Part shown: in pieces, positions 16,652 to 33,858 of the stretch | How the letters are laid out: each line of letters begins with the position of its first letter | Position numbering within the stretch: position 1 is the stretch's first letter | Source: Gammaproteobacteria bacterium | Lineage (GTDB): Bacteria > Pseudomonadota > Gammaproteobacteria > Burkholderiales > Rhodocyclaceae | Direction: 5' to 3' | Length of the DNA: 64,000 bases | Assembly (NCBI GenBank): GCA_018828385.1 | Contig: JAHJVE010000008.1 | Span: forward strand, 124,001-188,000 | Made by a program: the position numbers and the translations under genes | The notes under the pieces: generated by a model | The model's database searches: none | The model's input: only the letters and a program-made list of their open reading frames with translations | Told to the model about the DNA's origin: nothing

Positions 16652-16685
16652 AGTAGATTCTGAAATCTACTCGTTGAAATCTACT
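16652..16685. repeat. Candidate integrase arm-type sites (left end)
   Basis: The word AGTAGATT occurs at 16652 and, inverted, at 16664 and 16678 (12 and 14 bp apart). The same word recurs at the right end of the element (33771, 33783). Upstream, 16602-16631 carries three imperfect 10-bp repeats of the form ATGG-N4-CA. These lie just before the integrase start and may be sites for integrase, excisionase or autoregulation. Confidence 0.6.
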
Positions 16686-16700
16686 TGTGGAGATGTGCCC

Positions 16701-17969: not shown

Positions 17970-18060
17970 CAAGTTTGGCCACGCCTAGGGTAGCTCCCGA
18001 AAACCCGGCACCCTACCGGGTTGGCGATGGCCTTCTGAATAGGGGCGTGAGGGTAACGCT

Positions 18061-18744: not shown

Positions 18745-18908
18745 GGGTTTTCACCCAAGCAATTGCAACGCTTCGCAAATCGGTCGGGGATTTCACTGCG
18801 AAAACCAACGACCTATACGACCTATTTCAGATCATTTTTATGTGAATAATAGGATGCCATAGCAGTTCGCGGCAGTGGTTGTCGCGATGCTTCTTCAAGG
18901 AGCAAGCC
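18745..18908. promoter_or_regulatory. Intergenic region with direct repeats, possible operator
   Basis: A 9-bp direct repeat ACGACCTAT occurs twice ten bases apart (about 18809-18828), upstream of the HTH gene. It may be the binding site of the excisionase-like protein or of a phage regulator. No terminator is evident. Confidence 0.35.
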
Positions 18909-19190
18909 TTGGCATACGATCAATTCAGGGGGCGCATGATCGCCCCGCAAACCTGCGCAGAGGCGCTGGATAACTCCGAGTTCACGATTCATCGCTGGAT
19001 TCGTGAAGGAAAAGTCAAGGCCGTAAAACTGTCGTCGCGTTGCACACGCATCGATGGTGACTCTCTGGCTGATTTCCTCTGTTCGCGCGTTTTCACTCCG
19101 GGCGCCAAGGAAGAACAACCGGAGCCGCTGAAGCGGTCGACCGCAAAGCGCACTAAGCACACCGCAATAGAACTCGCTGGCCAGGCGTAA
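18909..19190 (+). CDS. Excisionase-like helix-turn-helix protein
   Basis: A 93-residue basic protein. The segment MIAPQTCAEALDNSEFTIHR followed by WIREGKVKAVKL has the winged-HTH form of excisionases/AlpA and the HTH_17 family. The start is taken at TTG 18909 because AAGGAG lies 6 bases upstream; the ORF extends further 5' without a better signal. A lysine-rich tail follows. It lies in the control region of the element, between integrase and replication genes, so it may drive excision or regulate the replication operon. Confidence 0.65.
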   Translation: MAYDQFRGRMIAPQTCAEALDNSEFTIHRWIREGKVKAVKLSSRCTRIDGDSLADFLCSRVFTPGAKEEQPEPLKRSTAKRTKHTAIELAGQA

Positions 19191-19201
19191 GAGGCTAAGT
19201 T

Positions 19202-19471
19202 GTGTCTCGCCAGCAAATACACGGCCAGGATCACCGGCCGCCCCGTATGCAGTTTCATGCCCCGGTACGGTTCGAGAATATTCGCGGCCCTTGGCGTGTG
19301 TCTATTGCCTTCGAGGCTCCCGCAATCACCTGGAATGATGAACGCTGCTTTGCCTATTTGCACGACTTCGATCAGCGGTCGCTGTGCCTGATCCTTGATT
19401 CCTGTCGGCAGGCAACCTACGAGCGGCGCGGCGCTTACGTGAATCCATTCTGGCGTGTGGGGGCGTTCTGA
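19202..19471 (+). CDS. Small element protein of unknown function
   Basis: An 89-residue ORF with GTG start at 19202, 11 bases after the HTH gene and 2 bases before the replication protein. Composition is ordinary soluble (VRFENIRGPWRVSIAFEAPA). The tight spacing on both sides supports translation. No family is recognised. Confidence 0.5.
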   Translation: MSRQQIHGQDHRPPRMQFHAPVRFENIRGPWRVSIAFEAPAITWNDERCFAYLHDFDQRSLCLILDSCRQATYERRGAYVNPFWRVGAF

Positions 19472-19473
19472 TC

Positions 19474-20301
19474 ATGGCGCGCTCCCGCAACATCAAGCCT
19501 TCAATCATGGAAAACGAAGATCTGGCCGAACTCGCGCCGATTGCCCGTCTCCTGTTCGTGTATCTCTGGATGCTGGCTGATCGCGAAGGACGGTTGGAAG
19601 ATCGACCCAAGCGCATTGCTGGCCGAGCGCTGCCTTACGACCGTGAAGCGGACGTTGACGATTTGCTCAATCAGCTTGCCAGTGCAGGTTTCATCACGCG
19701 TTACACGGTGGGCGACCTGGCGATCATCCAGATCAACAACTTTGGCAAACACCAGTCGCCGCATGTCCGTGAATCGGCTTCTGAACTGCCGAACATGGAA
19801 CAAGGCACAACTAAGGTAGTGACAAAGCACAACCTTGGCAGTGCCGAAGCATCGCCAAGATCGCCTGATTCCCTCTTCCTGATTCCTGATTCCCCTTTCC
19901 TGATTGCAGAGGTTGCGGCTGACGCCGCTGTTGCCGGCAAGCCGGCAGAGGCAGCAGCGCATCCGACCTGTCCAACTGAAGACCTGATCAAGCTGTATCA
20001 CGAGTTGATGCCACTGAATCCGCCAGTCAAGGTTGTCAACGATGGTCGCCGCAAGGCCATTCGCGCCAGATGGAAGGAAGCGGCACAGCTTTCCTGCCAA
20101 CCGTTTGGATATGGCAACCGTGAAGAAGGGTTGATTGCGTGGCGTCGTTTCTTCCAGGTATGCGCAGAGTCCGAATTTCTGACCGGGAGAGCGCCGGCCA
20201 TGCCAGGTAAGCCCCCGTTCGTTGCTGACATCGATTTCCTGTTCTCGCCTTCTGGCTTTGCCAAGTGCCTTGAGAACAAATACCACCGGGAGGCGGCATG
20301 A
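19474..20301 (+). CDS. Phage replication initiator-like protein (O/DnaT-type)
   Basis: A 275-residue protein. Residues 1-95 (RNIKPSIMENEDLAELAPIA, then RLLFVYLWMLADREGRLED) match the N-terminal winged-helix domain common to phage replication proteins that recruit helicase. A low-complexity linker (residues 128-150, DSLFLIPDSPFLIAE) follows, encoded by GATTCC words at 19867, 19881, 19888 and 19902. The C-terminal half (IRARWKEAAQL...) resembles the DnaT/helicase-loader region. It overlaps the dnaB-like helicase gene by 4 bp, which supports a helicase-loading role. Confidence 0.8.
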   Translation: MARSRNIKPSIMENEDLAELAPIARLLFVYLWMLADREGRLEDRPKRIAGRALPYDREADVDDLLNQLASAGFITRYTVGDLAIIQINNFGKHQSPHVRESASELPNMEQGTTKVVTKHNLGSAEASPRSPDSLFLIPDSPFLIAEVAADAAVAGKPAEAAAHPTCPTEDLIKLYHELMPLNPPVKVVNDGRRKAIRARWKEAAQLSCQPFGYGNREEGLIAWRRFFQVCAESEFLTGRAPAMPGKPPFVADIDFLFSPSGFAKCLENKYHREAA

Positions 20302-21662
20302 TCGATTTCGCCCGCCTGCATAGCCCCGATTCCGAACAGGCTGTTCTCGGCGCTCTGCTGCTGCCAGGATCGAATGCCGTCGACCGCATCGGTCAACTGA
20401 AGCCCGGCCACTTTTTCACCGAAGCACACCGCATCATTTTCGGTGAGATCGTGGCCATGGCAGCGCAGGCGATAGCCATAGACCCGGTGACCGTTGCCGA
20501 GCGCCTTGACGTTGCCGGACTGTCCGAGAAAACCGGCGGCCTGGCTTACCTGGGCGAACTGTCGCTGAACACACCATCGGCAGCCAACATCGGCCGCTAT
20601 GCTCAGACCGTGGTCGACAAGGCGCTTGAGCGTGAGTTGCTCGCAGCCTCCGAGCAGATTCAGGCGATTGCTTCCGGAGTTGGGCCGACCAAGGACAAGC
20701 TGGCCGCTGCACAGTCGGCAATCATGGCCATCACCGAATCGGCCGAGCCGAAGAAGCCGAAGCTGATTCGTGAAGTTCTGATACGTGCCGTTGCCACCAT
20801 CGAACGGCGTGGTGATGGCACCGACAACGCGATGTCGACCGGCTTTGATGCGATCGACAAAAAGCTGTCGGGCGGTTTGCGTCACCCCAATCTGGTCATT
20901 GTCGCGGCTAGGCCTGGGATGGGTAAAACAGCTTTGGCCGGATGCGTTGCGCTCAACACAGCTTCCAACGGAACGCCAACACTGTTTCTTTCAATGGAAA
21001 TGGCAGACATTGAATTGGCAGACCGACTGATTGCCATTGCTGGCCGCGTGCCACTGGATGACATCTTGGCCGGCAACATGAACGGCGATGCTGGCGACCG
21101 CATTCTGGCAGGAACTGCCCGGCTTCACGAATTGCCGTTGCTCATTGACGAGCAGGGAGGTTTGTCATTCTTCGACGTCGCCAGCAAGGCCCGCAGCGTA
21201 AAGCGGCAGCACGGCCTTGGCCTGCTGATCATCGACTACCTGCAACTGATGGTAGGCGATGGCGACTCTAGAAATAGCCAGATCGAGGGCATTACCCGAG
21301 GGTTGAAGGCGCTGGCCAAGGAACTGGAGATCCCGATCATCGCTCTGTCGCAGCTATCGCGAAATTGTGAAAGCCGACCAAACAAGAGACCGATGCTCTC
21401 TGATCTGCGCGAGTCTGGCGCCATCGAGCAGGACGCAGACATTGTTCTGATGTGCTACCGCGACGAGTACTACAACCCATCAAGCCCAGATGCCGGTACG
21501 GCCGAAATCATCGTGGCCAAGAACCGTCAGGGTTCAACAGGCATGGCTCGGCTTGCATACATCGCCCCACAAACCCGTTTCGAAACACTGGACAGCACTT
21601 GGCGCCCGGCACCCGTCGAGCAGCCGTTCGCGCAGAAAAACAGAAAGGGATTCTCAGCATGA
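20298..21662 (+). CDS. Replicative DNA helicase, DnaB family
   Basis: A 454-residue hexameric helicase. The N-terminal DnaB domain (SPDSEQAVLGALLLPGSNAV) is followed by a RecA-like C-terminal domain with Walker A ARPGMGKTAL near residue 205, Walker B LLIIDYLQLM near 312 and the EIPIIALSQLSRN segment. It is element-encoded, not the host dnaB. The ATG overlaps the upstream replication gene. It implies that the element replicates its own DNA after excision. Confidence 0.93.
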   Translation: MIDFARLHSPDSEQAVLGALLLPGSNAVDRIGQLKPGHFFTEAHRIIFGEIVAMAAQAIAIDPVTVAERLDVAGLSEKTGGLAYLGELSLNTPSAANIGRYAQTVVDKALERELLAASEQIQAIASGVGPTKDKLAAAQSAIMAITESAEPKKPKLIREVLIRAVATIERRGDGTDNAMSTGFDAIDKKLSGGLRHPNLVIVAARPGMGKTALAGCVALNTASNGTPTLFLSMEMADIELADRLIAIAGRVPLDDILAGNMNGDAGDRILAGTARLHELPLLIDEQGGLSFFDVASKARSVKRQHGLGLLIIDYLQLMVGDGDSRNSQIEGITRGLKALAKELEIPIIALSQLSRNCESRPNKRPMLSDLRESGAIEQDADIVLMCYRDEYYNPSSPDAGTAEIIVAKNRQGSTGMARLAYIAPQTRFETLDSTWRPAPVEQPFAQKNRKGFSA

Positions 21663-21919
21663 GCGCTCTCGAAAATCTTGCGGCAACCAAAGCCCGCGCC
21701 GATTCACGCGCCAACTTTGAAAGCTTCATCGCTGGCCGTCGTGCCGCTGGCTGGATTGAGGCAGACATCGCCGACTACACCGAATCTATCCGCGTGCTGA
21801 TGGGTGAAGACGATGCCGCGGCGCTGGCGCTGTTCCCAGCGGGCTCCTACCAGAGCGCAGAACACGCTAGGCAGGGCGCCCGCGAGTATTGGGCGCTACA
21901 ACTTCATTCAATCAACTAG
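21659..21919 (+). CDS. Small helical element protein
   Basis: An 86-residue, alanine-rich, probably helical protein; the ATG overlaps the helicase stop (ATGA). The sequence SRANFESFIAGRRAAGWIEA suggests a small DNA- or protein-binding helical bundle. No family is recognised. Its coupling to dnaB suggests a part in replication. Confidence 0.6.
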   Translation: MSALENLAATKARADSRANFESFIAGRRAAGWIEADIADYTESIRVLMGEDDAAALALFPAGSYQSAEHARQGAREYWALQLHSIN

Positions 21920-21935
21920 ATCAGGAGAAGCACGA

Positions 21936-22283
21936 ATGACCGAATCAACAACCTCCCCAACGATCCTCGCCGACCAACTTGCTTGCCGTGGTTGCATCAA
22001 TTTCTCCGAACTTGATGGCGCCATGGAGTGCATGAACTTGATCAGCTTCGATGGCGGTGTTCCGAATGCGCCGCCGTGCTTCGAGTTCCACTCGTCGTTC
22101 CTTGAAGCGTTGAAAAACCACAACGCAATCGTTCACCGGTGCGGCGCAGGTTCGCCCGAGCAGCGGCGAGCACTGGTGATCCTGATGGAAGTTTCACCTC
22201 CAGTCCTTATCGAGTTGGTTGGAGGTGTTTTCACAAACCCGTACCTGATCAGCGCAATTAACCAGTCAAGGAGAGCAGCATGA
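21936..22283 (+). CDS. Element protein of unknown function with Cys pairs
   Basis: A 115-residue protein with AGGAG at 21923-21927. A CRGC pair near residue 17 and further cysteines (ECM, PPC) could bind a metal. No known domain is recognised. It overlaps the next gene by 4 bp (ATGA), so it is part of the same operon. Confidence 0.55.
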   Translation: MTESTTSPTILADQLACRGCINFSELDGAMECMNLISFDGGVPNAPPCFEFHSSFLEALKNHNAIVHRCGAGSPEQRRALVILMEVSPPVLIELVGGVFTNPYLISAINQSRRAA

Positions 22284-24124
22284 ACATAGAAGAACAAGGA
22301 ATTCTCGCTCAGCTGAAAAAGCCTGGGACGCTTACTCGAGCTGCTATCGCATCCGGCATCGCACAAATCCCGATTCTTCCCGAGCAGCGTATTGGTTTCG
22401 CGGATGGAGGAAGTCTCGCCAATGGCGGAATCACCCGCTCGGAAACCGCCGACGAGTTGATGGCCAGAATGGCGGCCAAGTATGGCGCTCCGTCTGCCGG
22501 TCCTGTGCAACAACCGGCGCCAGTGGTTCAACAGCCGGCACCGAAACCTGCGCCGATGCAGCCGGCCACCTCCATACAGGGCGTCATGGGTATTCTCCGT
22601 GGCCGGAAGGAGGCCATCGACAAGGCGGCAGGTTTCGCCAATGGCGGGAAGATCAGCGGCCCCGGAACCCAGACATCGGACAGCATCCCGGCGAAAGTTC
22701 GGGAGACCGGTGAGGGCATCTTGGTTTCGAACCAAGAGCGCATCGTCAGCGCCGATCAGGAAAAGGCGTTGCAGCATGTTGCCAATTCGCAGGGCTTCGA
22801 GTCGGTTGATTCGATGCTGGCGCAGATGACCGGCAAGCCGGTTGGTCCGACGATCAAGAGTGCTCAGCGGGCAGCAGCAGACGGATTGTCACCAGAGACC
22901 GACCCGGATACTGATGGCCGGCGCCAGTACAGCCCAAATTACGGCGATGCGTTCGCCAATCGTGGTGGTTCGTTTGCACCGCAGGGACCGTCGAATGGCC
23001 CTGATTCGATCCTGGCGACGCCGACAATTCCCGGTATTACCACCCGAAGCGCCAGCGCCCCGGATTCGCTGCAGAGCATGACCGCACCACAGGGGAGCAT
23101 GGCCGTAGCAAAGCCGGAAGTACGCGAGGCATCAGGCGAACATGCTCCATCCAGCAATCAGGGAATTACGGGTATTGCCGCGCTGCCGGCAGGTCGCAAC
23201 GAACAGGGTGTGATTACTGCGGAGTCCGCGCAGTCCGTGATGGGAAATCCCATGACGCGTTCGGGTGGCATCGCCGGATCCATCGACATGGCTGGGGTCA
23301 ATGGCATTCTGGCCCGCGAGAACCAGGCGCGCGGCGAGATGATCGATAGTTCGATCAAGGCCAACGGTGGGAACGGTATCGGCATCCTGGGCGGTGATAC
23401 GACTGCTGCCGACAATGCCGAGAAAACCAACCGCTGGGCGCTTGATGACTTGCGAAGCGCAATCAAAGGGGCAGGTTCTCGTACCGAGCGCACGGCCCTA
23501 GGTCAGGCGCTAAGTCAAACGATTGCTGGGCAGAACCAGCAGGGTGCCGAGACCATACGGCAGCAGGGCGCCATCGAGCAGCGCGGCATACTGGCCGGGA
23601 TTGAGCAGGCGAAGCTGTCAGGTACTGACCAACGGGCAGCAGATCGCAATCGGGTTCAGATACGTGCCCAAGATTTGAAGGCTACGACTGCCGCAGATCG
23701 GATGGACAGCCAGGAGCGTATCGCCGAGCAGCGCACGCAGGACGCTGGAACGCGCTTGACGCTCCCGCAACGCCGCTCGAATTTCGAAATCACGGCTGCA
23801 CGCAAGGCTGTTGCTGGCCTGACGCCAGATGAGATCAAGCATAAGACCGCGAACTACACCGCGACCGGCCGAGAAAATCCGGACTACGACCCGACACTAG
23901 CCAAGGCTGTATCACTGGCCGGACGCCGGATGTATGGCGATGACGCGGAGTTTGATCAACGCCAGCAGAAGGAACAGGCACAGCAACCGGACGGTAACGA
24001 TGGCGACGTGACGACCCGCTTCCGTGCCGATGCCGGTATGAAGGGTCACACCATGGGCAAGCAGACCGACCATGGAACGGAAGTTCTGGACGCCTCCGGC
24101 AAGCTAATTGGGCATTACAAATGA
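22280..24124 (+). CDS. Large phage-type protein with GGKISGPGT motif
   Basis: A 614-residue protein. The N-terminal third has glycine-rich segments (FADGGSLANGG; FANGGKISGPGTQTSDSIPA near residues 115-140), a motif I know from phage/prophage virion-associated proteins of unclear role. Residues 75-100 are a Pro/Gln repeat. The middle is low-complexity; from 390 on it is charged and coiled-coil-like (AIEQRGILAGIEQAKLSG). No signal peptide. By position before the polyvalent protein it is probably an internal virion or ejection component, but this is inference. Confidence 0.6.
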   Translation: MNIEEQGILAQLKKPGTLTRAAIASGIAQIPILPEQRIGFADGGSLANGGITRSETADELMARMAAKYGAPSAGPVQQPAPVVQQPAPKPAPMQPATSIQGVMGILRGRKEAIDKAAGFANGGKISGPGTQTSDSIPAKVRETGEGILVSNQERIVSADQEKALQHVANSQGFESVDSMLAQMTGKPVGPTIKSAQRAAADGLSPETDPDTDGRRQYSPNYGDAFANRGGSFAPQGPSNGPDSILATPTIPGITTRSASAPDSLQSMTAPQGSMAVAKPEVREASGEHAPSSNQGITGIAALPAGRNEQGVITAESAQSVMGNPMTRSGGIAGSIDMAGVNGILARENQARGEMIDSSIKANGGNGIGILGGDTTAADNAEKTNRWALDDLRSAIKGAGSRTERTALGQALSQTIAGQNQQGAETIRQQGAIEQRGILAGIEQAKLSGTDQRAADRNRVQIRAQDLKATTAADRMDSQERIAEQRTQDAGTRLTLPQRRSNFEITAARKAVAGLTPDEIKHKTANYTATGRENPDYDPTLAKAVSLAGRRMYGDDAEFDQRQQKEQAQQPDGNDGDVTTRFRADAGMKGHTMGKQTDHGTEVLDASGKLIGHYK

Positions 24125-24160
24125 ACTCGATGATTCCTACGGCAACTGCCTTTTACCGCT

Positions 24161-24361
24161 TCATGACGAAGGATCGGAAAGCGAAGCAACCTGTTTTTCC
24201 AAGTCCAAAAACACTTGCTTTGGAACCGGAGAGTCATAGCTCAGGGTTGTCAGGCTGTTTAGAAGATCAGCCTTTGAAATTACCCCCTTTGAGATCAATG
24301 CCTCCGCAATCGCCGTTGTCAGGACGAGATTCGAAGTGAGGATTTTGTCTAGCTCGTTCAT
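24161..24361 (-). CDS. Small antisense-strand protein between the two large genes
   Basis: A 66-residue ORF on the minus strand, start ATG at 24361 with AAGGA 8 bases upstream. The product MNELDKILTSNLVLTTAIAE, continuing into ALISKGVISKADLLNSL, looks like a real soluble helical protein. The plus-strand ORF in the same place (24121-24339) does not. It is the only minus-strand gene seen in the element. Function unknown; it could be a small regulator. Confidence 0.5.
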   Translation of the reverse strand: MNELDKILTSNLVLTTAIAEALISKGVISKADLLNSLTTLSYDSPVPKQVFLDLEKQVASLSDPSS

Positions 24362-24453
24362 GGGCCGTTCCTTCTGTGAAAAAACTATGAGACTGGAATC
24401 CATAGTCTATCCCAATGGAATTGGCTGCCATATTCATTGAGAGTACCTCAGTC

Positions 24454-27400
24454 ATGCCATTCATTCCGCTTGAACAGTCCAACGATATTCAGCCTAGAGG
24501 CTTCATCCCGTTGCCCGGTGCTGAGAAGGATCGGCCGCGCCGCGGCTTCACTCCACTGCAAGCAGACCCCGAGCGCCCGAGCATGGCCAAGCAGCTTGCC
24601 CTGGAAAACCCGGCAGCGGCCATTGCCGAAACCGGACTTAACCTGGCATCGCAGGCGGTGGCGCTCCCGGTTGCTGGCCTCGCAGGACTGGCGACAGAAG
24701 CAGGCAACGCTCTGGGCCTGACTGAGAAGAAGGGCGCCGATGTCGTGCACCAGGTGGGCGAGGCCATGACCTACCAACCCCGCGGCGAATTGGGGAAGGC
24801 GACTACCGAGCTTGCAACCTACCCATTCCAGAAATTGGCCGAAGCTGGCCAGTACTTGGGCGGCAAGACCTTGGAAGCAACCGATAGCCCGCTGGCGGCA
24901 ACGGTGGTCGACACGGCGATCAATGCCTTGCCGATGGTCATTGATCCGGCGATGCGTGCAGCCAAAAAAGCGAAGGCTGGAAATGTCGAGGCGATACCGG
25001 CAGAACAGGCAACCAGTGTTACGGGGGCGGATGTAACAGCGCCCGTAACAGAAAAAGGCGGAGGTGCATCGCCCGTGGTTACACCTGAAGTTACACCGAA
25101 ATCCCGTGGTTTCGTTCCACTCGATGATGCACCGCTCGCTGCAATGGCGAAGTCTGGTGAAGCAAATGCCGATGCATCCGCGGGTGCGTACCGGCAGGCC
25201 GTTGATAACGCCGCTGGCGTAGTTTCTGGCGATCCGGCCCCGCGCGGTTTCCAATCTATGAAGGAGGCCGGTGATGGCATCGCTCAAGAAAACGTACAAG
25301 CGGGAGTACGCCGCTCTCCAATGGGCGATTCGTTGGTGCTCAGACACGACGCACCGGAACTGGCCATGGTACGGGGGGCGGGGGATAACGGTTTGCCCGG
25401 AGTGGCAGAGCAGCTTCGAGACGTTCCTGCGCGACGTTGGTCCGAAGCCGAAGCACAGCAAGAGCCGGTCAATCTGGCTGGGCAGGCTGGACGTGAACGG
25501 GAACTACGAGCCGGGGAATTGCGCCTGGGTGCCGAGGCAGCGCCAGATTACACACCGCCGGTTCTGTCACCGGATTCAATGCAACGACAAGGAATTGACC
25601 ATAGAGGAGGCGGCGCGGGATCTGGCGATTTGCTCGGAGCGTCTCAGGCTGCGGATCGTGCAGCAGGGGATGGAGCCGGCCGAGGCAATTACTCGCAGTC
25701 TCAGAAAGTACCGGAAGTGTTCGGTGTTCCTGACGCACGGCGGGCTGACACTGTCGACGCTGGAATGGGAAAGCAAGCTGTGCCTGACACGAGGCAACTT
25801 GCGCAAACGACTCAGGCGCGGGATGCCGCTGGAAAAAGCATTGCAACCGGGCGACTTCCGGAAACTCAGCCGTCCGCGAAAGGCTTCCAGCCCCTAAACG
25901 CAGAAGTGCAGCCGATGGCCGGCAAGGTGCAGAACAGTTGGGCGCCGGGGGCAAATTACGCCCCGTTGATCGATGACGCCAAGAGCCCGGCCGGCGCCGC
26001 CAGTGTGGTCGACCTGCCCAATCCTGTTCGTCGCGAGAACATCATCAAGGATTTCACACGGGCGCTCGACAGCACGATCTACGAAGGCAGGGTGAAGGGC
26101 AAGAAACGTCTCGGCTTCTTCCGGCCAGGTGTCGAAGAGGTGCGAATCAAGCGGTTCAACGACATCGAAGTGGCCAGCCACGAAATGGCCCACCTGATTG
26201 ATCATCGCGTGCCTGAACTCTCGCAAGCGATGAAGGCCGATAAGGCTCTGGCGGCCGAGCTGCGCAGTGTGTCCTACGATCAGCGCAATATCGCTGAAGG
26301 TTTTGCCGAGGGCATGCGCTTGTGGATGACGCAGCCAGACGTTCTGCAAGCCAGAGCGCCGAAGGTTGCCGCCTTCCTGGATGGTTTCGCCGCCAAGCAC
26401 GCCTACGGCCCGGCACTGAAGAAGGCACAGGCCGATATGGTTGGCTGGTTCGGTCAGGATGCACTTAACCGCGCCCGCTCGAAGATCGGCACGGATAAGC
26501 CATTCGCTGAGTTCGTGGACCGCGCTTTCGACAAGTTCCGACAGTCCGTTGTGGATGACCTGCACGGTATCTACGTTATGGAGCGCGACATGACCGGCGG
26601 CAAAATCAAGCCCGGTGGAACCTACGAAACTGCCCGGCTATCCCGTGCCTCTGCCTCGATTGCCGATGGCGCGATCAGGTACGGCTATCCGGTCGTAAAG
26701 GCGGACCGTAGTTTCACCTTTGCAGGGAAGGGTTTGGAGGAAATTCTGCGTCCGCTGGCTGGCAGCATGGATGATGCGCTGCTGTACTTCGTCGGAAGGT
26801 CTGCACGCGAGCTGATGATGCAAGGCCGGGAGCATCTTTTCACCAAGGCCGAGATCAAGGGCATGCTCGAGCTGCATACACCTGAGAGGTTGCAAGCATT
26901 CCGCGAGTACCAGAGGTGGAATAAGGGCATCCTCGATTTCGCCGAGGCCCAAGGTGTGCTGAATCCGGAAACGCGCAAGCTGTGGAAGCGGACCGAATAC
27001 CTGCCGTTTCATCGCGTGCAGCAGCCGGGAAGCCTGAAGGGCAAGCCTGGTGACTGGTCGGGCGTCAAGGCACTGACCGGCGGCACGGACAATATTCGCG
27101 ACGTTCTCGGGAACATGGTCGCGAACGCCGCACAACTGATTGACGTGGCGGTGAAGAACGAAGCACGCCTGAAGGTTGCCGAACTGGCCAGCAAGCCAGG
27201 TGGCGGCAAGTTCATGGTCAAGATCGATTCCGAATCTCGACCGGTGAAGATTGCCGGCAGTCAGATCATGGATGAAATGCTGAAGCGCTACGGCATCGCA
27301 ATTGATGGCCAGCCGCCCGCTTTCTTCGAGTTCTTTCTGCAAGGACAGCCGCCAGCCGGTGGCAATGTCGTTGCCGTGCTGAAGGGCGGGAAGCCCGTCT

Positions 27401-28983
27401 GGTACGAAGTCGGAGATCCCATCTTGTACCGGGCATTGTCGTCACTCGATCGGGCTCCCATGCACTGGCTGACCCAGTGGCTCGGCATGCCCAAACGTAT
27501 CGGACAGGCAACGATCACCCTGACCCCTGATTTCATGGTGGCGAACATTGCCCGCGACACAATCATGGGCGCCGTGATGTCGCGTTCTGGCTTTCGGCCA
27601 GTGCTCGATTCGTTAAAGGGAATGCGCCTGCGGATGACGAATGATCCTCTGTATAAGGACTACATCGCCAACGGCGGCGGGCTCTCCAGTTTGTACCTGG
27701 ATGAGCATCATCTGCGCACGAAGCTGGAGAAGTTTTACAACCGGCAGGGGATTGATTACCGAACGGTGCTGGATACGCCCGACAAGGTTCTCAGCGCAAT
27801 CGAAACGATGGCCGATGCTTTCGAGATGTCGACGCGTATGGGCGAGTACGGTCGTGCCATCAAGGCCGGGGAGCATCCACGCCATGCTGCATACCAGGGC
27901 CGGGAAGTCTCGACTGACTTTGCCATGAAGGGCGATAGCAAAGCTCTCGGCTTCATGTACGACACGGTGATGTTCCTCCGGCCTGCTGTCGTTTCCATGG
28001 ATCGCCTATATCGCGGCGTTGCCCACGATCCGAACCGGGCAGCCATCGGCATCAAGACGGCGATGATTGCGCTGTCGTCTGTCGGGCTGTACCTGCTGAA
28101 CCGTGACGATCCGCGCTATGCCGATTTGCCGGATTGGGATCGGGATACGAATTGGCACTTCTTTGTCGGCGACCAGCATTTCCGGTACCCAAAAATATGG
28201 GAAATCGGCGCCGTGGCCAGTTCGGCAGAGCGCACCGTAGAGCGCCTGATGGAATCGAACCCGGCAGGGTTGGGCTCCGATTTCGCCCGAATAATAGGCC
28301 ATACCTTCAGCCTGAACCTGATGCCGCAGATCCTGGCACCGATCTACGAGCAGGGGGCCAACAAGAACAGCTTCACGAAGGCGCCCATCGAAACGCCGGG
28401 CATGGAGAACGTGCAGCCATTCCTCCGGGCCAAGCCGAACACCAGCGAAACGATGCGAGCGCTTGGCATGGCCACACGGAACATGCCGGAGGGCTTGCAA
28501 GTGAATCCAGTTCGCACAGAGGCGCTGCTGCGGGGCTACCTGAATACCTGGGCAACTTACGGCTTGATGATGACCGACAAGGCTTTCTTCAACGATGCCG
28601 GCCCGACGATGCGCACCGATGAATTGCCCGTGGTTCGCCGCTTCTACGCTCAAGAGCCGGCTAAGCACACCAAGTTCGAAACGCAGTTCTACGACATGTT
28701 GGGCGAGGCCAAGCGCTTGCAGGGAACCATGCGGGAATTGGATCGCACTGGCCGTCCGGAGATTGCCGATGAGAAGGAGCGCAGCCCGCTTGCCGGCGAA
28801 TCCAAGCCCCTGGAGCGAGCTCAGCAGAGCATCAAGGCAATCAACGCCGAGATGATGAAGACGCACCGCGACAAGTCCCTGGCACCAGATGAAAGGCGCC
28901 AGCGCATAGACGAACTGATTGCCGAGAAGAACCTGCTACTGAAGGCGACCGTGCAGGACGCCAAAGCAGCGCAGAAACGATAA
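24454..28983 (+). CDS. Giant polyvalent phage protein with HExxH and LPD38-like region
   Basis: A 1509-residue protein from ATG 24454 (GAGAG nearby; an ATG 13 codons earlier lacks a ribosome site). Five copies of [RK]GFxPL-like motifs occur near residues 15, 30, 218, 263 and 475. A zinc-protease-type HEMAH lies near residue 575. From about 740 to the end it resembles the 'large polyvalent protein-associated' (LPD38) regions of phages and conjugative elements, ending in a charged helical tail. Such proteins are thought to be injected with DNA. Residues 274-481 are encoded by a stretch that also holds another gene in a different frame, and residues ~188-215 by triple-word modules. Confidence 0.75.
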   Translation: MPFIPLEQSNDIQPRGFIPLPGAEKDRPRRGFTPLQADPERPSMAKQLALENPAAAIAETGLNLASQAVALPVAGLAGLATEAGNALGLTEKKGADVVHQVGEAMTYQPRGELGKATTELATYPFQKLAEAGQYLGGKTLEATDSPLAATVVDTAINALPMVIDPAMRAAKKAKAGNVEAIPAEQATSVTGADVTAPVTEKGGGASPVVTPEVTPKSRGFVPLDDAPLAAMAKSGEANADASAGAYRQAVDNAAGVVSGDPAPRGFQSMKEAGDGIAQENVQAGVRRSPMGDSLVLRHDAPELAMVRGAGDNGLPGVAEQLRDVPARRWSEAEAQQEPVNLAGQAGRERELRAGELRLGAEAAPDYTPPVLSPDSMQRQGIDHRGGGAGSGDLLGASQAADRAAGDGAGRGNYSQSQKVPEVFGVPDARRADTVDAGMGKQAVPDTRQLAQTTQARDAAGKSIATGRLPETQPSAKGFQPLNAEVQPMAGKVQNSWAPGANYAPLIDDAKSPAGAASVVDLPNPVRRENIIKDFTRALDSTIYEGRVKGKKRLGFFRPGVEEVRIKRFNDIEVASHEMAHLIDHRVPELSQAMKADKALAAELRSVSYDQRNIAEGFAEGMRLWMTQPDVLQARAPKVAAFLDGFAAKHAYGPALKKAQADMVGWFGQDALNRARSKIGTDKPFAEFVDRAFDKFRQSVVDDLHGIYVMERDMTGGKIKPGGTYETARLSRASASIADGAIRYGYPVVKADRSFTFAGKGLEEILRPLAGSMDDALLYFVGRSARELMMQGREHLFTKAEIKGMLELHTPERLQAFREYQRWNKGILDFAEAQGVLNPETRKLWKRTEYLPFHRVQQPGSLKGKPGDWSGVKALTGGTDNIRDVLGNMVANAAQLIDVAVKNEARLKVAELASKPGGGKFMVKIDSESRPVKIAGSQIMDEMLKRYGIAIDGQPPAFFEFFLQGQPPAGGNVVAVLKGGKPVWYEVGDPILYRALSSLDRAPMHWLTQWLGMPKRIGQATITLTPDFMVANIARDTIMGAVMSRSGFRPVLDSLKGMRLRMTNDPLYKDYIANGGGLSSLYLDEHHLRTKLEKFYNRQGIDYRTVLDTPDKVLSAIETMADAFEMSTRMGEYGRAIKAGEHPRHAAYQGREVSTDFAMKGDSKALGFMYDTVMFLRPAVVSMDRLYRGVAHDPNRAAIGIKTAMIALSSVGLYLLNRDDPRYADLPDWDRDTNWHFFVGDQHFRYPKIWEIGAVASSAERTVERLMESNPAGLGSDFARIIGHTFSLNLMPQILAPIYEQGANKNSFTKAPIETPGMENVQPFLRAKPNTSETMRALGMATRNMPEGLQVNPVRTEALLRGYLNTWATYGLMMTDKAFFNDAGPTMRTDELPVVRRFYAQEPAKHTKFETQFYDMLGEAKRLQGTMRELDRTGRPEIADEKERSPLAGESKPLERAQQSIKAINAEMMKTHRDKSLAPDERRQRIDELIAEKNLLLKATVQDAKAAQKR
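25017..25096 (+). repeat. Two triple-word modules inside the giant gene
   Basis: TGTTACG/TGTAACA/CGTAACA begin at 25017, 25032 and 25044 (15 then 12 bp). GGTGCATC/GGTTACAC/AGTTACAC begin at 25063, 25077 and 25089 (14 then 12 bp). Word and spacing match modules of the intergenic array at 29737-30057. In frame they encode VTGADVTAPVT and ASPVVTPEVTP. Confidence 0.75.
25274..25897 (+). CDS. Nested gene: HNH/homing-endonuclease-associated type protein
   Basis: A 207-residue ORF wholly inside the giant gene, in another frame. A perfect AAGGAGG at 25261-25267 stands 6 bases before its ATG. The segment WPWYGGRGITVCPEWQSSFE, then FLRDVG and LDVNGNYEPGNCAWV, is the well-known phage motif of small HNH/AP2-type homing-endonuclease-related proteins. 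The C-terminal half is basic with an HTH-like ARDLAICSERLRLRIVQQGM. The host frame over this stretch is low-complexity (GAGSGDLLGASQAADRAAGD), so the nested frame is probably the conserved one. Confidence 0.75.
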   Translation: MASLKKTYKREYAALQWAIRWCSDTTHRNWPWYGGRGITVCPEWQSSFETFLRDVGPKPKHSKSRSIWLGRLDVNGNYEPGNCAWVPRQRQITHRRFCHRIQCNDKELTIEEAARDLAICSERLRLRIVQQGMEPAEAITRSLRKYRKCSVFLTHGGLTLSTLEWESKLCLTRGNLRKRLRRGMPLEKALQPGDFRKLSRPRKASSP

Positions 28984-29008
28984 CCACCACCACAGAAGGA
29001 GATTCACC

Positions 29009-29485
29009 ATGTTGCCTGAAGCACAAGAACACGTTGCCGCCCTTGAGGCCAAGGAAACCGCCGAACGCCAGGCGACGCTGCAGCAAACCGAGCGGGTGCG
29101 AATGATCGGCGTATTGCAGCAGACAATCGCCGATGCTGAGCGCCGCAAGGTCGCGCCGATTTTCTCGAATGAGACGGCCGAGCTTTCTAACTCATCCATG
29201 CAGAGCCGCGTCGACCGACTGGCGAATGATTACGAGAACCGTTTGTGGCACGAACTGCAGGCAGGCCGGCGGTATCCCCTCGACCTGTGCAGCGAAGGTG
29301 CGATCGCCTATTTCTGCCGTGACCTGATCCTAAGTAAATTGCCCGCACTGGCAGCGAAGATCAGCAGCCGCGATTTCAAGGGTGAAGTGGCCAGCGAAGA
29401 GAAGCGTGCCGCTGTTGTTGCCGATTGCGACCGGATTATTTCCGAAGCCAAGGTCAGGCTGGCTGAATTGGCCGTGCCTAGCTAA
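29009..29485 (+). CDS. Helical element protein of unknown function
   Basis: A 158-residue protein with AGGAG at 28998-29002, 25 bp after the giant gene. Residues 1-75 are strongly helical/coiled-coil (VAALEAKETAERQATLQQTE); the C-terminus is another charged helix. No family recognised. A long hairpin follows 23 bp after the stop. Confidence 0.6.
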   Translation: MLPEAQEHVAALEAKETAERQATLQQTERVRMIGVLQQTIADAERRKVAPIFSNETAELSNSSMQSRVDRLANDYENRLWHELQAGRRYPLDLCSEGAIAYFCRDLILSKLPALAAKISSRDFKGEVASEEKRAAVVADCDRIISEAKVRLAELAVPS

Positions 29486-29508
29486 AAATACAGCCAAGTA
29501 CCCAAAGG

Positions 29509-29549
29509 CTGCCCAAATGGTCAGATTTGAAATCCGACCATTTGGGCAG
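29509..29549. terminator. Long near-perfect hairpin after the late genes
   Basis: CTGCCCAAATGGTC pairs with GACCATTTGGGCAG (14 bp); inside, GATTT pairs with AAATC after one A/C mismatch. There is no T-run. It may end or stabilise the late transcript, and it opens the 750-bp non-coding region. Confidence 0.6.
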
Positions 29550-29556
29550 GGGTGAA

Positions 29557-29738
29557 TACAAAGGTTTTACAAAGGGTGAATGTCAAGGTTTAGCCAAGGG
29601 TCGGCGTTGTTCCTGTTGGTCTTCGAATGCACAGGTTGCGGCTAGGGTGGAGCGGCTACTGCCTAAATCGAATAGCAAGGTTTCCACAAGGGTGTCGCGA
29701 CTTACGCAGACGCTTGAATGCTAGGTTTTGCTAAGGGT
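29557..29738 (+). repeat. Five AGGTTT/AGGGT paired repeats
   Basis: Pairs of the form YAAGGTTT..YAAGGGT occur at 29557, 29583, 29631, 29674 and 29719, with the two AGG words always 11 bp apart. The base(s) preceding each AGG co-vary between the two halves: TACAAAGG/TACAAAGG in copy 1, CAAGG/CAAGG in copies 2 and 4, TGCTAGG/TGCTAAGG in copy 5. No convincing gene is present here. Confidence 0.7.
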
Positions 29739-30057
29739 ACGCAGAGCGCAGTACGCAGCCAGGTACGCGCGGAAACCGATGGTTCGCAGGATCAGGTTAG
29801 CAGCAAAAGCGCAGTGCGCAAATCAGAAGTGCGCAGCATAGTGCGCACGGAAATGATGGTATCCAGATCCCGGTATCCAACCTGGTATCCACGAAATTGG
29901 CAGTGACGGGCAATGGTTACACAGGCTGAGGTTACACCTCTGGTTGCACCAAAAAGGGCCGCTTTCCTGGACGGCCAGAATGTAACAACACCGATGTAAC
30001 AGCCGGTGTAACAGAAAATCGCAGGTTTCCAGGCCGAGGTTTCCAAGGTGGTTTCCA
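29737..30057 (+). repeat. Array of triple-word modules (W-14/15-W-12-W)
   Basis: Six clear modules each repeat their own 7-8-bp word three times at 14 or 15 then 12 bp. GTACGCA: 29737, 29751, 29763. GTGCGCA: 29814, 29829, 29841. GGTATCCA: 29858, 29872, 29884. GGTTACAC: 29915, 29930, 29942 (last GGTTGCAC). TGTAACA: 29981, 29995, 30007. GGTTTCCA: 30024, 30038, 30050. A degenerate seventh (GGTTCGCA/GGTTAGCA/AAAGCGCA) starts at 29781. The array is followed by the hairpin TGACGCA-GATT-TGCGTCA (30063-30080). The stretch 29486-30238 holds no gene I can support. Confidence 0.85.
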
Positions 30058-30238
30058 AGGAATGACGCAGATTTGCGTCATGGCGAATAGTCCAAAGATG
30101 CAAGCGGATTTACAACTGAGATCAAGCGTCCGAAAGATCTGTCCTTTGCCCTCGTCCGAGGTGCGTCAAGCGCAAATACCTTGCGCATAAATGCTGGTAG
30201 TATATCCACAGGAGTGAACCATCCCTTTGGAGCAACTT

Positions 30239-30886
30239 ATGTCGCGAAGCAAGACGCTTCTATTGCTGTTGGTCTGCTTGATAAATGGTTCATCTCAGGC
30301 AGCTATTTTGAGGTCATCGTATGGTCTCATTGATACGGCGACAGGTCTTGAATGGTTAAAGCTGACAATTACTGCTGGCCAAAGTTACAACTCGGTGGCC
30401 TCCGGTTGGGGTGGCTTTGTCGGAAGTGGATGGGGATTCGCATCTGTCGACGACGTGGCCACCCTGTTCACGGATGCCGGAGGTACGGTTGCCCCTAGTG
30501 GTACCGATGGCATCTATCAACCCACGAACTACGAACCTGCACGTACCCTAATCGGCATTCTTGGAGCTACTATTTCGATAGTTAATGAGGGTGGCGAGAC
30601 ATTCGGCGTCCGAGGGATATTGGGAACCAGCAACTACGACAGGACACATCAGACCGCTTACTTGCAAACCACTATCTTTGTTCATGGGATGCCAAGTCAA
30701 GGTTTGCTCTGGGCCGATGGAGGTGGGCAAGATTACTGGGATTGGTATGCAACACCCGAGACTGGATCATTCCTCGTACGCGCCGCTTCGACCCTATCTG
30801 TTCCTGAGCCAGGAACCTGCACATTGCTGTTGATAGGGATTGGTCTAGCGGTTGGCATTTCCAGATTCAAGCGAAAGCTGGCTTAG
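30239..30886 (+). CDS. PEP-CTERM sorted exported protein
   Basis: A 215-residue secreted protein. An N-terminal signal peptide (SKTLLLLLVCLINGSSQA) is followed by a soluble domain rich in Gly/Trp (YGLIDTATGLEWLKL resembles the DUF1566-like lectin style). The C-terminus has the exosortase signal VPEPGTCTLLLIGIGLAV followed by basic residues RFKRK. The ATG at 30239 has GGAG 6 bases upstream. A PEP-CTERM protein depends on a host exosortase, so this is cargo suited to exosortase-bearing Rhodocyclales. Confidence 0.85.
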   Translation: MSRSKTLLLLLVCLINGSSQAAILRSSYGLIDTATGLEWLKLTITAGQSYNSVASGWGGFVGSGWGFASVDDVATLFTDAGGTVAPSGTDGIYQPTNYEPARTLIGILGATISIVNEGGETFGVRGILGTSNYDRTHQTAYLQTTIFVHGMPSQGLLWADGGGQDYWDWYATPETGSFLVRAASTLSVPEPGTCTLLLIGIGLAVGISRFKRKLA

Positions 30887-31328
30887 CCTCCCTGTTTTGT
30901 ACTGGTGGCATTCATCGAATCCGAGGAACCGCTGCTCGAATCTGAGCAGCGGTAAATTGCCTCGATAGGTATCTGCGCCCTATCGGTCGACAGCATCTTG
31001 GCGTGGCGGCTGCGCTACGCCCCGACGTGGTTGAAATCATACTCCGCTGGCATTGAACATTGGAGCAAGTCCATCGGCGGCAACAATGAAAATATTTTTC
31101 ACTGACCAGGCGCCGTTTATCACGAATCAACATCCGAGATAGCCTGTTACGCAGGCGTTTCAACAGATTTGATTACCGGAGATTGCTTGCCGTTAAGCGC
31201 GCAAAATTGGACTATTTTTATTGGAACAACATAGGCATGATGATGCTGTGCAAGGCGCACAAGCGAACGCCCCGAGGACTGGCATCCAGGGGGCGCTCTG
31301 ACCAGACAGACTATCAAGGAGTCACATC
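30887..31328. other. Intergenic region, hairpin and no supported gene
   Basis: Just after the PEP-CTERM gene, ACCGCTGCTC-GAATCT-GAGCAGCGGT (30928-30953) is a perfect 10-bp stem and could be a terminator without T-run. The remaining ~370 bp has only short ORFs on both strands with shadow-like composition; it may be a decayed gene. AAGGAG at 31316-31321 belongs to the next gene. Confidence 0.5.
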
Positions 31329-31592
31329 ATGGCTGCTATCAATTCTACGACCACAACGACCGGCAACGATGCCGACTACGTTTCTGGAAGTCTCGCCGAT
31401 GTTTTTATGCTGGTATCCGCTGCAAGGCGGCTGATCGAAAACAAGGATGGTGAAGCCTCTTGTCTGCTGGAAAAGGCCATGTCTGAAATTCGTGCTGCCC
31501 AGGACTATCTGGAGGCCATGGACCCGATTGAATCGCCGATCTCTCATGACGTGGCCAAAATGCTCGGTCGGATCGGCAGGCCACGGATGTAA
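31329..31592 (+). CDS. Small helical protein of unknown function
   Basis: An 87-residue protein with a good AAGGAG site. After a Thr-rich start it is a helical segment (DVFMLVSAARRLIENKDGEA). No domain recognised; similar four-helix small proteins occur in accessory DNA. It lies 17 bp before the DUF2513 gene and probably shares its transcript. Confidence 0.6.
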   Translation: MAAINSTTTTTGNDADYVSGSLADVFMLVSAARRLIENKDGEASCLLEKAMSEIRAAQDYLEAMDPIESPISHDVAKMLGRIGRPRM

Positions 31593-31609
31593 TGAAAGGG
31601 GAGTGAGCG

Positions 31610-31999
31610 ATGCGCCGCGATATGGACCTGATTCGAGAACTGATGCTGAAGTTGGAGTCAGTGCCGAGAAAGCCGGGAATCGTTGAGGAATTATCCGCTG
31701 GCGAGGGTGAAATGATTTTCGAGGGCTATTCGTCGGACGAAATCGACTATCACTTGAATCTGATCGTTGAGGCCGGTTTTCTCGCGACCCACGGGATGAT
31801 GATGTCTGGAGCCGTTCTGTTTGATCGACTGACGTGGGCAGGGCATGATTTTGTTGACTCCGTTCGCAGCCCCGAAGTCTGGGCCAAGACCAAGAAAGGA
31901 GCCGAGGCTGCTGGCGGCTTCACTGTTGATCTGCTCAAGGATCTGGCAAAGGGTTTCATCAAGAAGCAGATCGAGGAATACACCGGGGTGAAGCTTTGA
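31610..31999 (+). CDS. DUF2513-family protein
   Basis: A 129-residue protein. The start MRRDMDLIRELMLKLES and the winged-helix-like middle (SSDEIDYHLNLIVEAGFLAT, then LTWAGHDFVDSVRS) match DUF2513, a family common on mobile elements and near phage-defence genes. Fold and role are likely DNA-binding (winged helix). It is followed within 49 bp by the HipA-like kinase gene. Confidence 0.8.
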   Translation: MRRDMDLIRELMLKLESVPRKPGIVEELSAGEGEMIFEGYSSDEIDYHLNLIVEAGFLATHGMMMSGAVLFDRLTWAGHDFVDSVRSPEVWAKTKKGAEAAGGFTVDLLKDLAKGFIKKQIEEYTGVKL

Positions 32000-32048
32000 T
32001 GTGGCGGCGAGATGATCAACCGGGATGTGCTGAAGGGTGATTCCTGAG

Positions 32049-32990
32049 ATGCGCGACCAAGGTTTGCAATTGATCGATGTGGCAGACTGGCCGGCAGACG
32101 ATTTCTTTGCAACATATCCCGAAGGGGCGCGGGATAAGCGGGCATTTTTTCCGCCAGATAATTGCGCTCTGCCATTCATCAACAAGTCGCGCCGCTACCT
32201 GTTTAAGCTCTCTGATAAGCGATACAAGGAGCAATTCTGGGGAGAGATCGTAGCCCACAGGGTTGGGCAAATGATTGGTGTTTCAGTGCCGCCTGCCTAT
32301 CCTGCAATCGACAGCAGCAGAAATGAAGCTGCAGCACTGATCGAGTGGTTCTATGAAGATGGAAAACAAGCTTCTGTCCATGGTGGTAGGTTCATGCAGC
32401 AGATGATTCCAGGGTTCGATATGAAAACCGGGAAACAGCATAACTTCAGGGCGATTCGCAGGCTTTTCGGTTTGTTTCAGAAATCAAACTCTCTCGCCAA
32501 TCCTCATTGGTTAGAGGCATGGGCAAAGGTGTTTATTTTTGATGCTTTGATTGGCAATACTGATCGGCACCAGAACAACTGGGGATTGCTGTTTGATTCC
32601 AGTCGGGAACAGGGCCCGGTAGATTTGGCGCCTTGGTTTGACAACGGCACTAGCCTTGGTTGTGAGCGGTGGGAGGCTAATGTTTCAGGGTGGTCCTTAG
32701 CCCGCTTGGATAAGTATCTGTACAATGGTAATCACCATATGCGCTGGGATAAGGCGAGTCCGAATCGCTGCGGTTTCTTCGAGATGCCAAAGCTGCTGAT
32801 TGAACTTGCTCCATCTCTGCGTGATCCAATGTTGAATTGTATTGAAGCTGTTGATTTGACCGAGCTTTCCGCGTTCATGAATCAATGCACAGCGATTCCA
32901 AGCTATGTTCCTCTCAGCCCGTGGCGGGCTGGTTTCATGTTGCGCTTGATTGAGCGCAGGCAAGAAATTCTTGCGGAGATTTTGTTGTGA
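32049..32990 (+). CDS. HipA-like (phosphatidylinositol-kinase-fold) protein kinase
   Basis: A 313-residue kinase-like protein. The nucleotide-binding part RRYLFKLSDKRYKEQFWGEI is followed by the catalytic loop ALIGNTDRHQNNWGLL (Asp near residue 171, Asn near 177) and the metal-binding WFDNGTSLG near 197, so the key residues are present. It lacks the HipA N-terminal subdomain; that portion appears to be in the next gene, whose GTG overlaps this stop. ATG 32049 is chosen over a GTG at 32037 for ribosome-site spacing. HipA kinases act as toxins that phosphorylate translation factors. The base composition is more AT-rich than its host neighbours. Confidence 0.8.
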   Translation: MRDQGLQLIDVADWPADDFFATYPEGARDKRAFFPPDNCALPFINKSRRYLFKLSDKRYKEQFWGEIVAHRVGQMIGVSVPPAYPAIDSSRNEAAALIEWFYEDGKQASVHGGRFMQQMIPGFDMKTGKQHNFRAIRRLFGLFQKSNSLANPHWLEAWAKVFIFDALIGNTDRHQNNWGLLFDSSREQGPVDLAPWFDNGTSLGCERWEANVSGWSLARLDKYLYNGNHHMRWDKASPNRCGFFEMPKLLIELAPSLRDPMLNCIEAVDLTELSAFMNQCTAIPSYVPLSPWRAGFMLRLIERRQEILAEILL

Positions 32991-33694
32991 CCCCGATTTC
33001 GCATTTGCTTGAGCCGTCGCGGCTCCTGCTGGTTTGGCAGCGTCCGCTGATTGACAGTGGTCGGCGTAGCCGTCGAGTGATCGGGGAGATTGTGCGAAAT
33101 GGCGAAGGTGAAACAGTCTTCCGGTACATGAGCCAATCAGATGACTTTCGGCTTGCTGCCGGTGAAGGATTCCAGGGCTATCCGGCATTTCGTCTAGCTC
33201 GAGCGCAACATGATGAAAATGTTCTTGAGGCCTTCACTTGTCGCCTGCCATCGCGTAAGCGTGGCGACTTCACGGATTACCTGGCCGCCCATGGTTTGCC
33301 GAGTGACTTCTCCGGATCTGATTTCTCGTTGCTTGCTCACACCGGCGCCAAATTGCCTGGCGATGGGTTTGAGATAATTCCCGATCTTGCTGGTATTGCG
33401 GGGCACTTTGACTTGATCGTTGAAGTCGCAGGAACGCGCCACCAAGAAGGTGTTGATCTTGGCGCAGTGTCTGTCGGTGATAGTGTTTCATTGCTGCCTG
33501 AACCAACCAATGAATTTGATCCTGCGGCTATTGAGATAGTGCATTCAGCTGGCGGAAGGATCGGATATGTTCCAAAGCCATATTGCGAGATGCTTCGTCC
33601 ATGGCTTGATGATGGTCGCCTGTCTGCGTCTATTCAAAAGCTCAACGGCCGCCCAGATCGTCGGCTCGTCTACCTTCGGGTAAGCGTGACCTAG
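32987..33694 (+). CDS. HIRAN-domain protein with HipA-N-like start
   Basis: A 235-residue protein, GTG start overlapping the kinase stop by 4 bp. Residues 10-55 (RLLLVWQRPLIDSGRRSRRV then IGEIVRNGEGETVFRYM) look like the N-terminal subdomain found in HipA/antitoxin-linked proteins. Residues ~150-235 are a HIRAN domain (SLLPEPTNEFDPAAIEIV, IGYVPKPYCEMLRPWL), a fold that binds damaged or ss/ds DNA ends. With the kinase it forms a two-gene unit: DNA-sensing subunit plus kinase effector is a plausible defence or toxin design, by inference. Confidence 0.75.
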   Translation: MTPISHLLEPSRLLLVWQRPLIDSGRRSRRVIGEIVRNGEGETVFRYMSQSDDFRLAAGEGFQGYPAFRLARAQHDENVLEAFTCRLPSRKRGDFTDYLAAHGLPSDFSGSDFSLLAHTGAKLPGDGFEIIPDLAGIAGHFDLIVEVAGTRHQEGVDLGAVSVGDSVSLLPEPTNEFDPAAIEIVHSAGGRIGYVPKPYCEMLRPWLDDGRLSASIQKLNGRPDRRLVYLRVSVT

Positions 33695-33770
33695 CCGCAT
33701 TGGACGAGCTTTTCTTGATTCATGCACCAACTTGGAATTGTCTGCACGTAATTGGTGCGCTGCTTGATAG

Positions 33771-33790
33771 AGTAGATCAGCAAGTAGATT
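33771..33790. repeat. Candidate integrase arm-type sites (right end)
   Basis: AGTAGATC at 33771 and AGTAGATT at 33783, 12 bp apart, match the words before the integrase gene. They lie 50-70 bp inside attR, as expected for arm sites. Confidence 0.6.
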
Positions 33791-33840
33791 ATTTGGATAA
33801 CGTTTTAATTTGTCTAGTATTGGTGGGGAATAAGCCGCAT

Positions 33841-33858
33841 GACCTGTACTACAGCTGC
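33841..33858 (+). other. attR candidate
   Basis: GACCTGTACTACAGCTGC repeats the glnA 3' end with one synonymous difference (GAC for GAT). The sequence beyond continues as host DNA with a terminator and the DUF4124 gene. In the glnA frame the bases after attR (AAT) do not give an immediate stop, so the exact crossover and ancestral glnA end are unresolved. Confidence 0.78.

Follow-up and report, generated by a model that had tools for sequence, protein, structure and literature searches.

The window, the 64-kb stretch of DNA analysed here, carries a short intergenic array of repeated words within an integrated element whose features are collected in Table 1. Like a phage satellite, the element is att-flanked, encodes its own integrase and has an empty site in relatives: in 6 of 11 loci of the same genus, the glutamine synthetase gene passes at the att core into sequence homologous to the window from 33841-33844 onward, and the other five match the right flank only further along. 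In the subset of ORFs scanned in the 17.3-kb element, no capsid, portal, tail or large terminase gene is found, while Rep and DnaB are present. Profiles of two families of the small terminase subunit (TerS), PHROG 1206 and PF03592, return nothing convincing from the six frames of the element (best E 0.2), and no TerS of the PHROG 1206 family is found in the host genome; only 10 of 199 genomes of the host's bacterial family contain phrog_1206 matches, four of them strong. Relatives of the 1522-aa LPD38 protein occur in phages, and the 614-aa protein has none in the phage collection searched. At its right end (32037-33694), the element has a HipA-like/HIRAN gene pair that matches the candidate anti-phage system PDC-M03A/B (PADLOC). 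A gene for a PEP-CTERM protein, seemingly an unusual cargo, also lies inside the element (30227-30886).

Table 1 Features of the integrated element and of its word array, in window positions.
Feature	Position	Strand	Description
Integrated satellite-like element	16519..33858	.	~17.3 kb, inserted in the 3' end of the gene for a glutamine synthetase (Gln-synt_C)
attL core	16501..16518	+	Last codons of the glutamine synthetase gene
attR core	33841..33858	+	18-mer near-identical to attL (17/18)
Tyrosine integrase	16674..17969	+	Pfam PF00589, PHROG 1
int-alpA RNA	17978..18045	+	RF02996
AlpA-like small HTH protein	18909..19190	+	HTH_17, 26.2 bits against a cut-off of 27; PHROG 66 excisionase/regulator, 3.7e-5
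O-like replication initiation protein	19474..20301	+	PHROG 16167 and others
DnaB-like replicative helicase	20298..21662	+	PF03796
614-aa protein	22280..24124	+	No family match; relatives in genome G177, of the same genus, and in a second element of the host genome
1522-aa LPD38 protein	24415..28983	+	PF18857; anchor gene for finding relatives of the element
U1 doublet	29557..29575	+	TACAAAGG twice, 11 bp apart; PF03592-TerS type
Four weaker D1 doublets after U1	starts 29578, 29625, 29670, 29715		
M1	29737..29769	+	GTACGCA, starts 29737/29751/29763; TerS class S[ED]GAIRKR, e.g. phage HK639
M2	29814..29847	+	GTGCGCA, starts 29814/29829/29841; TerS class AESGIRRR
M3	29858..29891	+	GGTATCCA, starts 29858/29872/29884; TerS class THGA[IV]NKR, e.g. 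Pseudomonas phage USP_18, Acidovorax phage AP1
M4	29915..29949	+	GGTTACAC at 29915/29930, GGTTGCAC at 29942; TerS class SRAA[IM]
M5	29981..30013	+	TGTAACA, starts 29981/29995/30007; TerS class NHVAI[AT]R[RK]
M6	30024..30057	+	GGTTTCCA, starts 30024/30038/30050; TerS class HTAI[NG]KR, e.g. Pseudomonas phage Cruim01

The array consists of six modules (29737-30057), each made of three copies of a short word whose starts lie 14 or 15 and then 12 bp apart, as the initial annotation of this DNA had described. Its statement that the three copies are identical in every module needs correction, since the third copies of M1 (GTACGCG) and M4 (GGTTGCAC) depart from their words by a single base. When the + strand of the window is scanned for 7-mers with at most one mismatch at a spacing of 14 or 15 and then 12 bp, six matches are returned, all in the array, and the rest of the window has no triple-word module on either strand. 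The initial annotation had proposed a comparison with shuffled sequence and a scan of related genomes. One module appears in 2 of 3000 Markov shuffles of 29486-30240 and none in the other 2998, and 10 Markov sequences of 64 kb contain none at this spacing. The (14,12) form is likewise rare in genomes: in the host genome the pattern GGTnnnCA occurs twice, both times within the array, against 0 for the reversed-pattern control, and across 399 genomes of the order three GGTnnnCA words at this spacing give 11 matches in 9 genomes, against 0 for the reversed pattern. The three words are identical in five of these 11 matches (two in the window, one each in genomes G062, G473 and G505), agree in two of three in another three, and all differ in the remaining three. 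With a private word in every module, the array does not have the constant repeat and unique spacers of a CRISPR, an exclusion already made by the initial annotation. Searched as a whole against phages, the array DNA gives short, weak matches, among them that of M6 to the terS gene of Cruim01 (44 bp, blastn E 9). Between the last gene and the array lies a 20-nt inverted repeat with a 1-nt loop (29509-29549), which has the look of a strong hairpin or terminator.

The modules are not a new type of repeat, as the same triple words occur within phage terS genes, directly behind the codons of the helix-turn-helix, at a spacing of 15 and 12 bp. The lead case is L003, a locus with a relative of the neighbouring LPD38 gene (84% identical), where the arrangement GGTTGCCA-15-GGTTGCCA-12-GGTTTCCA lies inside the ORF of a terminase small subunit of PHROG 1206. 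Among 13 inspected terS genes, comprising 12 phage records (11 annotated as terS, one as hypothetical) and the satellite terS of L003, 11 carry a triple with at most one mismatch. GTACGCA is found three times in the terS genes of HK639, GF-2 and Klebsiella 2b, GTATCCA in those of USP_18 and AP1 (the latter with one mismatch), GTTTCCA in Cruim01, GTTGCCA in PSTCR7lys and GTTCGC in PseuP_222; the triple of Orisa03 is weak, and PalP_Y7 has none. In EhrS_49 (GTACGCA) and PS-1 (GTGACCA), the spacing is 12,13 and the third copy falls out of frame, indicating that the DNA, and not the protein, is conserved. The array mixes 14 and 15 bp as its first spacing, while the terS genes use 15 (or 12,13).

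In a non-redundant set of 46 PHROG 1206 terS genes (below 80% identity between members), a perfect triple is present in 33, compared with 0.38% of synonymous-codon shuffles, and a triple with at most one mismatch in 39, compared with 4.4%. The triple words exceed what codon use leads one to expect, and a constraint at the level of DNA acts inside terS. One wider set lists 159 distinct terS regions, and in another 154 of 161 have a triple with at most one mismatch; the TerS loci L187 and L188 do not match the regular expression used for the former and are left out of it. At the spacings tested, 7 of 59 TerS representatives have no triple. All six words of the window have a TerS class. For the words of M4 and M5, IMG/VR was searched regardless of genes and TerS was called by profile: TerS is encoded across the GGTTACA triple (M4) in 9 of 12 contigs, though not in the other 3, and across the TGTAACA triple (M5) in 18 of 28, though not in the other 10. 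By eye, three M4-class terS genes (L304, L307 and L315) show an extra inverted copy, GTGTAAC/TGTAAC, about 10-11 bp behind the third word. In contig L365 (8695-8728), a TGTAACA triple with TerS-like codons directly follows upstream sequence that is unrelated, a fusion that may represent an early stage of a mimic.

The word is set almost one-to-one by two residues of the recognition helix. In 52 representatives, a set that excludes the M4-class TerS (missed by the search pattern) and includes six TGTAACA representatives recruited by their word, the two residues account for 2.85 of the 2.95 bits of entropy in the word, with 1.61 bits as the best of 2000 shuffles. The correspondence runs through eight words: GTACGCA goes with the helix class S[ED]GAIRKR, GTATCCA with THGA[IV]NKR, GTTTCCA with HTAI[NG]KR, GTTGCCA with HTAIQ and HQAIS, GTTACCA with HVA[IV][AGM], GTTAACA with HV[ST]I[NS], GTGCGCA with AESGIRRR, and TGTAACA with NHVAI[AT]R. 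An exception is L115, whose R helix, SHTAIRKK, is accompanied by GTTTCCA. Where two proteins are less than 30% identical in their C-terminal part, 25 pairs have helix and word in common, 184 have neither in common, and none is mixed; at 70% identity or more, helix and word both differ in 24 of 34 pairs. Over all identity bins, 8 pairs share the helix without the word and 30 the word without the helix, the former being consistent with a two-residue key that does not separate GTTACCA from TGTAACA (shared V and A). In HK639-type TerS the two residues, G32 and R35, are predicted to occupy positions 2 and 5 of a third helix (31-41) in an AlphaFold2 model of moderate confidence (pLDDT 74.6, pTM 0.40). 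A fold search with this model yields nothing below E 0.84, and searching the PDB by sequence gives no hit up to E 1, so the placement of the recognition helix is a prediction of this model only.

The feature is larger than first described, as five weaker AAGGTTTnnnCAAGGGT-like doublets (family D1) precede the array at 29554-29738. The only exact doublet in the window is U1, the others being imperfect. A comparable pattern is found in the terS genes of PF03592, in which an 8-mer recurs 11 bp on, a distance that puts the second copy out of frame. With at most one mismatch, this 11-bp doublet is present in 25 of 37 PF03592 representatives, compared with 3.2% of synonymous shuffles, and doublets at the other spacings from 9 to 15 bp occur in 0 to 2 of the 37. 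The doublets ahead of the triplets resemble this PF03592 TerS pattern. The array of L397, from another genome of the same genus, contains an exact GGTAAGG doublet, as do some PF03592 terS genes.

Comparable arrays are found in other elements. A second LPD38 element of the same genome (L219, G000:C6:309000-328500) has a smaller array with GGTTACA and GGTTCGCA modules. Among 26 further LPD38 loci, TerS of either family is found in 11, downstream word-like triples in 6 (L219, L323, L327, L330, L331 and L397, the last recruited by pattern search) and neither in 10; triples judged not word-like were dropped (CGAGAAA and GGCCCAG in L341 and L343, and a second triple, GAGCAGC, in L331), and that of L321, which belongs to the locus's own terS, was not counted as an array. 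L323 alone combines triples with a TerS, so that 6 of the 7 LPD38 array bearers, counting the window, have no detected TerS. Two LPD38 relatives, L003 and L184 (Dechloromonas sp. Dech2017), encode a phrog_1206 TerS of their own.

Outside the LPD38 family, the (14,12) GGTWTCCA pattern is present in five IMG/VR contigs, in none of them within a TerS gene as judged by profiles. Three of these, L316, L317 and L319, have array DNA in common with the element phiAH14b (78-82% over about 135 bp, plus some further stretches) and share 14- to 17-mers with the window modules; L318 has a primase/helicase module, and L320 is the fifth contig of the set. Modules are also found in G505 and in G473, in the latter near a phiAH14b-like integrase (42% over 371 aa). 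phiAH14b itself (KU708005), a satellite of Pseudomonas, contains five triple modules, of which one overlaps a short hypothetical gene and the other four lie clear of annotated genes, and a 20-mer of M5 is identical in it. It has been shown by experiment to be packaged in phiAH14a capsids, with headful packaging inferred (PMC4936722). It resembles the window element in having triple modules that lie outside annotated genes or at their edges, in the M5 20-mer and in packaging by a helper capsid, and differs in its genes (primase/helicase) and in its spacings, mostly 12,13; the words are not mentioned in the accessible text of that report (PMC4936722). In the 55 kb of the helper AH14a there is neither a perfect triple nor a TerS of one of the two families, so the phiAH14a/b pair is not yet proof of a link between word and helper. 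The 12-mer ATTCTTGACAGG near the AH14a terS candidate recurs in AH14b, with about one such match expected by chance. A TTGAC-rich stretch of phiAH14b (L354, 15540-15600) is similar to the sequence before the AH14a terS candidate (AH14a 28338); it could be the real helper site, but its 12-mer match is within chance.

With a probability of about 80%, the stretch from 29557 to 30057 is a row of packaging-site mimics, arranged in tandem within a phage satellite and each read by the TerS of a different helper. Words and geometry match those inside terS genes, and the words in these genes are presumably the packaging sites of the helpers; from the sequence comparison, we infer that TerS binds the words, that packaging follows from this binding and that the satellite uses several helpers. 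In phages, the site for genome selection would sit within the terS gene, and each triple module would reproduce the arrangement that a given TerS class recognises when it selects its own genome. Once a matching helper becomes active in the cell, the TerS of this helper would bind the corresponding module on the satellite DNA after replication and direct the helper terminase to package the satellite, starting at the module. The row of modules would then offer alternative entries to different helpers, and many different modules would replace a TerS of the element's own and widen the helper range. Among the options of the initial annotation, protein-binding sites with module-specific readers gain support, the likely readers being phage small terminases; the process that it thought must keep the three copies of a word alike is explained if a single TerS helix-turn-helix reads all three.

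On a wider scale, several unrelated satellite families probably keep libraries of helper packaging tags across two TerS families, with modules collected from or fitted to many phages, the triplets corresponding to PHROG 1206 and the 11-bp doublets to PF03592. As part of the same reading, the two-residue code would reveal the helper range of a satellite, and phages would diversify word and helix together to escape.

The main rival to the packaging-site reading is that binding of helper TerS by the modules serves chiefly to titrate this protein, and so to hinder the phage's own packaging, with no packaging of the satellite as its purpose. This decoy function draws on the same evidence for TerS binding, and satellites are reported to interfere with the packaging of their helpers (PMC5052747, PMC9026076). 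It is nevertheless unlikely. All 20 (14|15,12) modules in the six arrays with at least two modules, one of them overlapping another, are co-oriented within their arrays, an order that a sponge does not need and that better suits a directional start of packaging. A single copy per specificity makes a poor sponge, and the LPD38 arrays lie mostly in elements without a detected TerS.

That the modules are pieces of the terS genes of several helpers, which recombination has left behind without a function of their own, is less probable still. In M2 and M4, where the spacing is 15 bp, about 12 codons give an in-frame TerS-like reading, and contig L365 has the appearance of a terS fragment joined to other sequence. 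However, the 14-bp spacing of four of the six modules breaks the frame, the profiles of both TerS families fail to find anything convincing in the six frames of the element, and the design and some exact modules are common to other elements, as in the 20-mer of phiAH14b and the 14- to 17-mers of L316, L317 and L319.

The words could also serve the satellite's own proteins, as replication iterons or regulator operators, with the resemblance to TerS sites being incidental, and the element does encode Rep and DnaB. Iterons are short direct repeats in mobile elements that share one word, whereas each module of the array has its own and six different words follow one another in place of one word along an origin. 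The words moreover match those of TerS genes, where they covary with the recognition helices, which leaves this explanation highly improbable.

A structured RNA or a sequence-diversifying element, both raised by the initial annotation, might be suggested by the intergenic position and by the words of M4 and M5, which are reverse complements over their core, yet nothing found here points to either, and both are very improbable. Rfam at gathering thresholds finds int-alpA alone in the window and thus no known structured-RNA family in the array, and within phage protein-coding genes a constraint at the DNA level acts on these words and their spacing. A pairing of M4 with M5 is unneeded, as each word has its own TerS class.

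Viewed as packaging-site mimics, the modules have known counterparts: satellites that copy a helper cos site (cos-type SaPIs) and triple TerS sites (lambda cosB) are already known. The cos-type SaPIs SaPIbov4 and SaPIbov5 are described as carrying a copy of the helper packaging site and as being packaged by the helper terminase (PMC5052747). Their likeness to the window element would be the satellite-borne helper packaging site; they carry one conserved cos site common to certain cos phages, in contrast to the six words and the doublets of the array. In pac SaPIs, which have their own TerS, and in Gram-negative PICIs, which have Rpp, a protein is reported to redirect the terminase (PMC5052747, PMC9026076). 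Control over which DNA is packaged is the common point, but these PICIs use a protein of their own, whereas the window element carries sites and no detectable phrog_1206- or PF03592-type TerS. PICMI satellites, of the Int/AlpA type like the window element, are described as travelling in helper particles although they encode no recognisable packaging genes themselves; the authors of that report could identify neither cos nor pac sites in the genome of the helper (PMC10803314).

In lambda, the cosB elements R3, R2 and R1 are three copies of one short word read by the helix-turn-helix of TerS, as in the proposed reading of a module, but the R sequences are reported to share about 16 bp, with R2 inverted and an IHF site between them (PMC9026076); the words of the window are 7-8 bp, all direct and close together. 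In P22 and SPP1/SF6, pac is described as lying in or at the terS gene, a position comparable to that of the triple words, and the SPP1 pac has direct repeats, while the P22 pac is one 22-bp sequence, unlike triple words (PMC9611059, PMC4737164). The DNA-binding domain of SF6 is reported to show little sequence specificity in vitro, whereas word and helix covary in PHROG 1206. A literature search across titles and abstract openings, with few subscription papers, returned no in-gene triple words, no helix-word code in PHROG 1206 TerS and no multi-word arrays; within it, the view of the initial annotation that no element of this form had been described holds for the multi-word array.

A 2022 review names DNA recognition by the small terminase as a key unanswered question (PMC9611059), and the covariation of word and helix offers a directly testable code for one TerS family. 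If the proposed reading is true, the arrays explain how a TerS-less satellite uses many helpers, and the packaging partners of a satellite would be predictable from sequence. With tags that at least six kinds of phage packaging protein seem to use for recognising their own genomes, such a satellite could ride in the particles of many unrelated phages.
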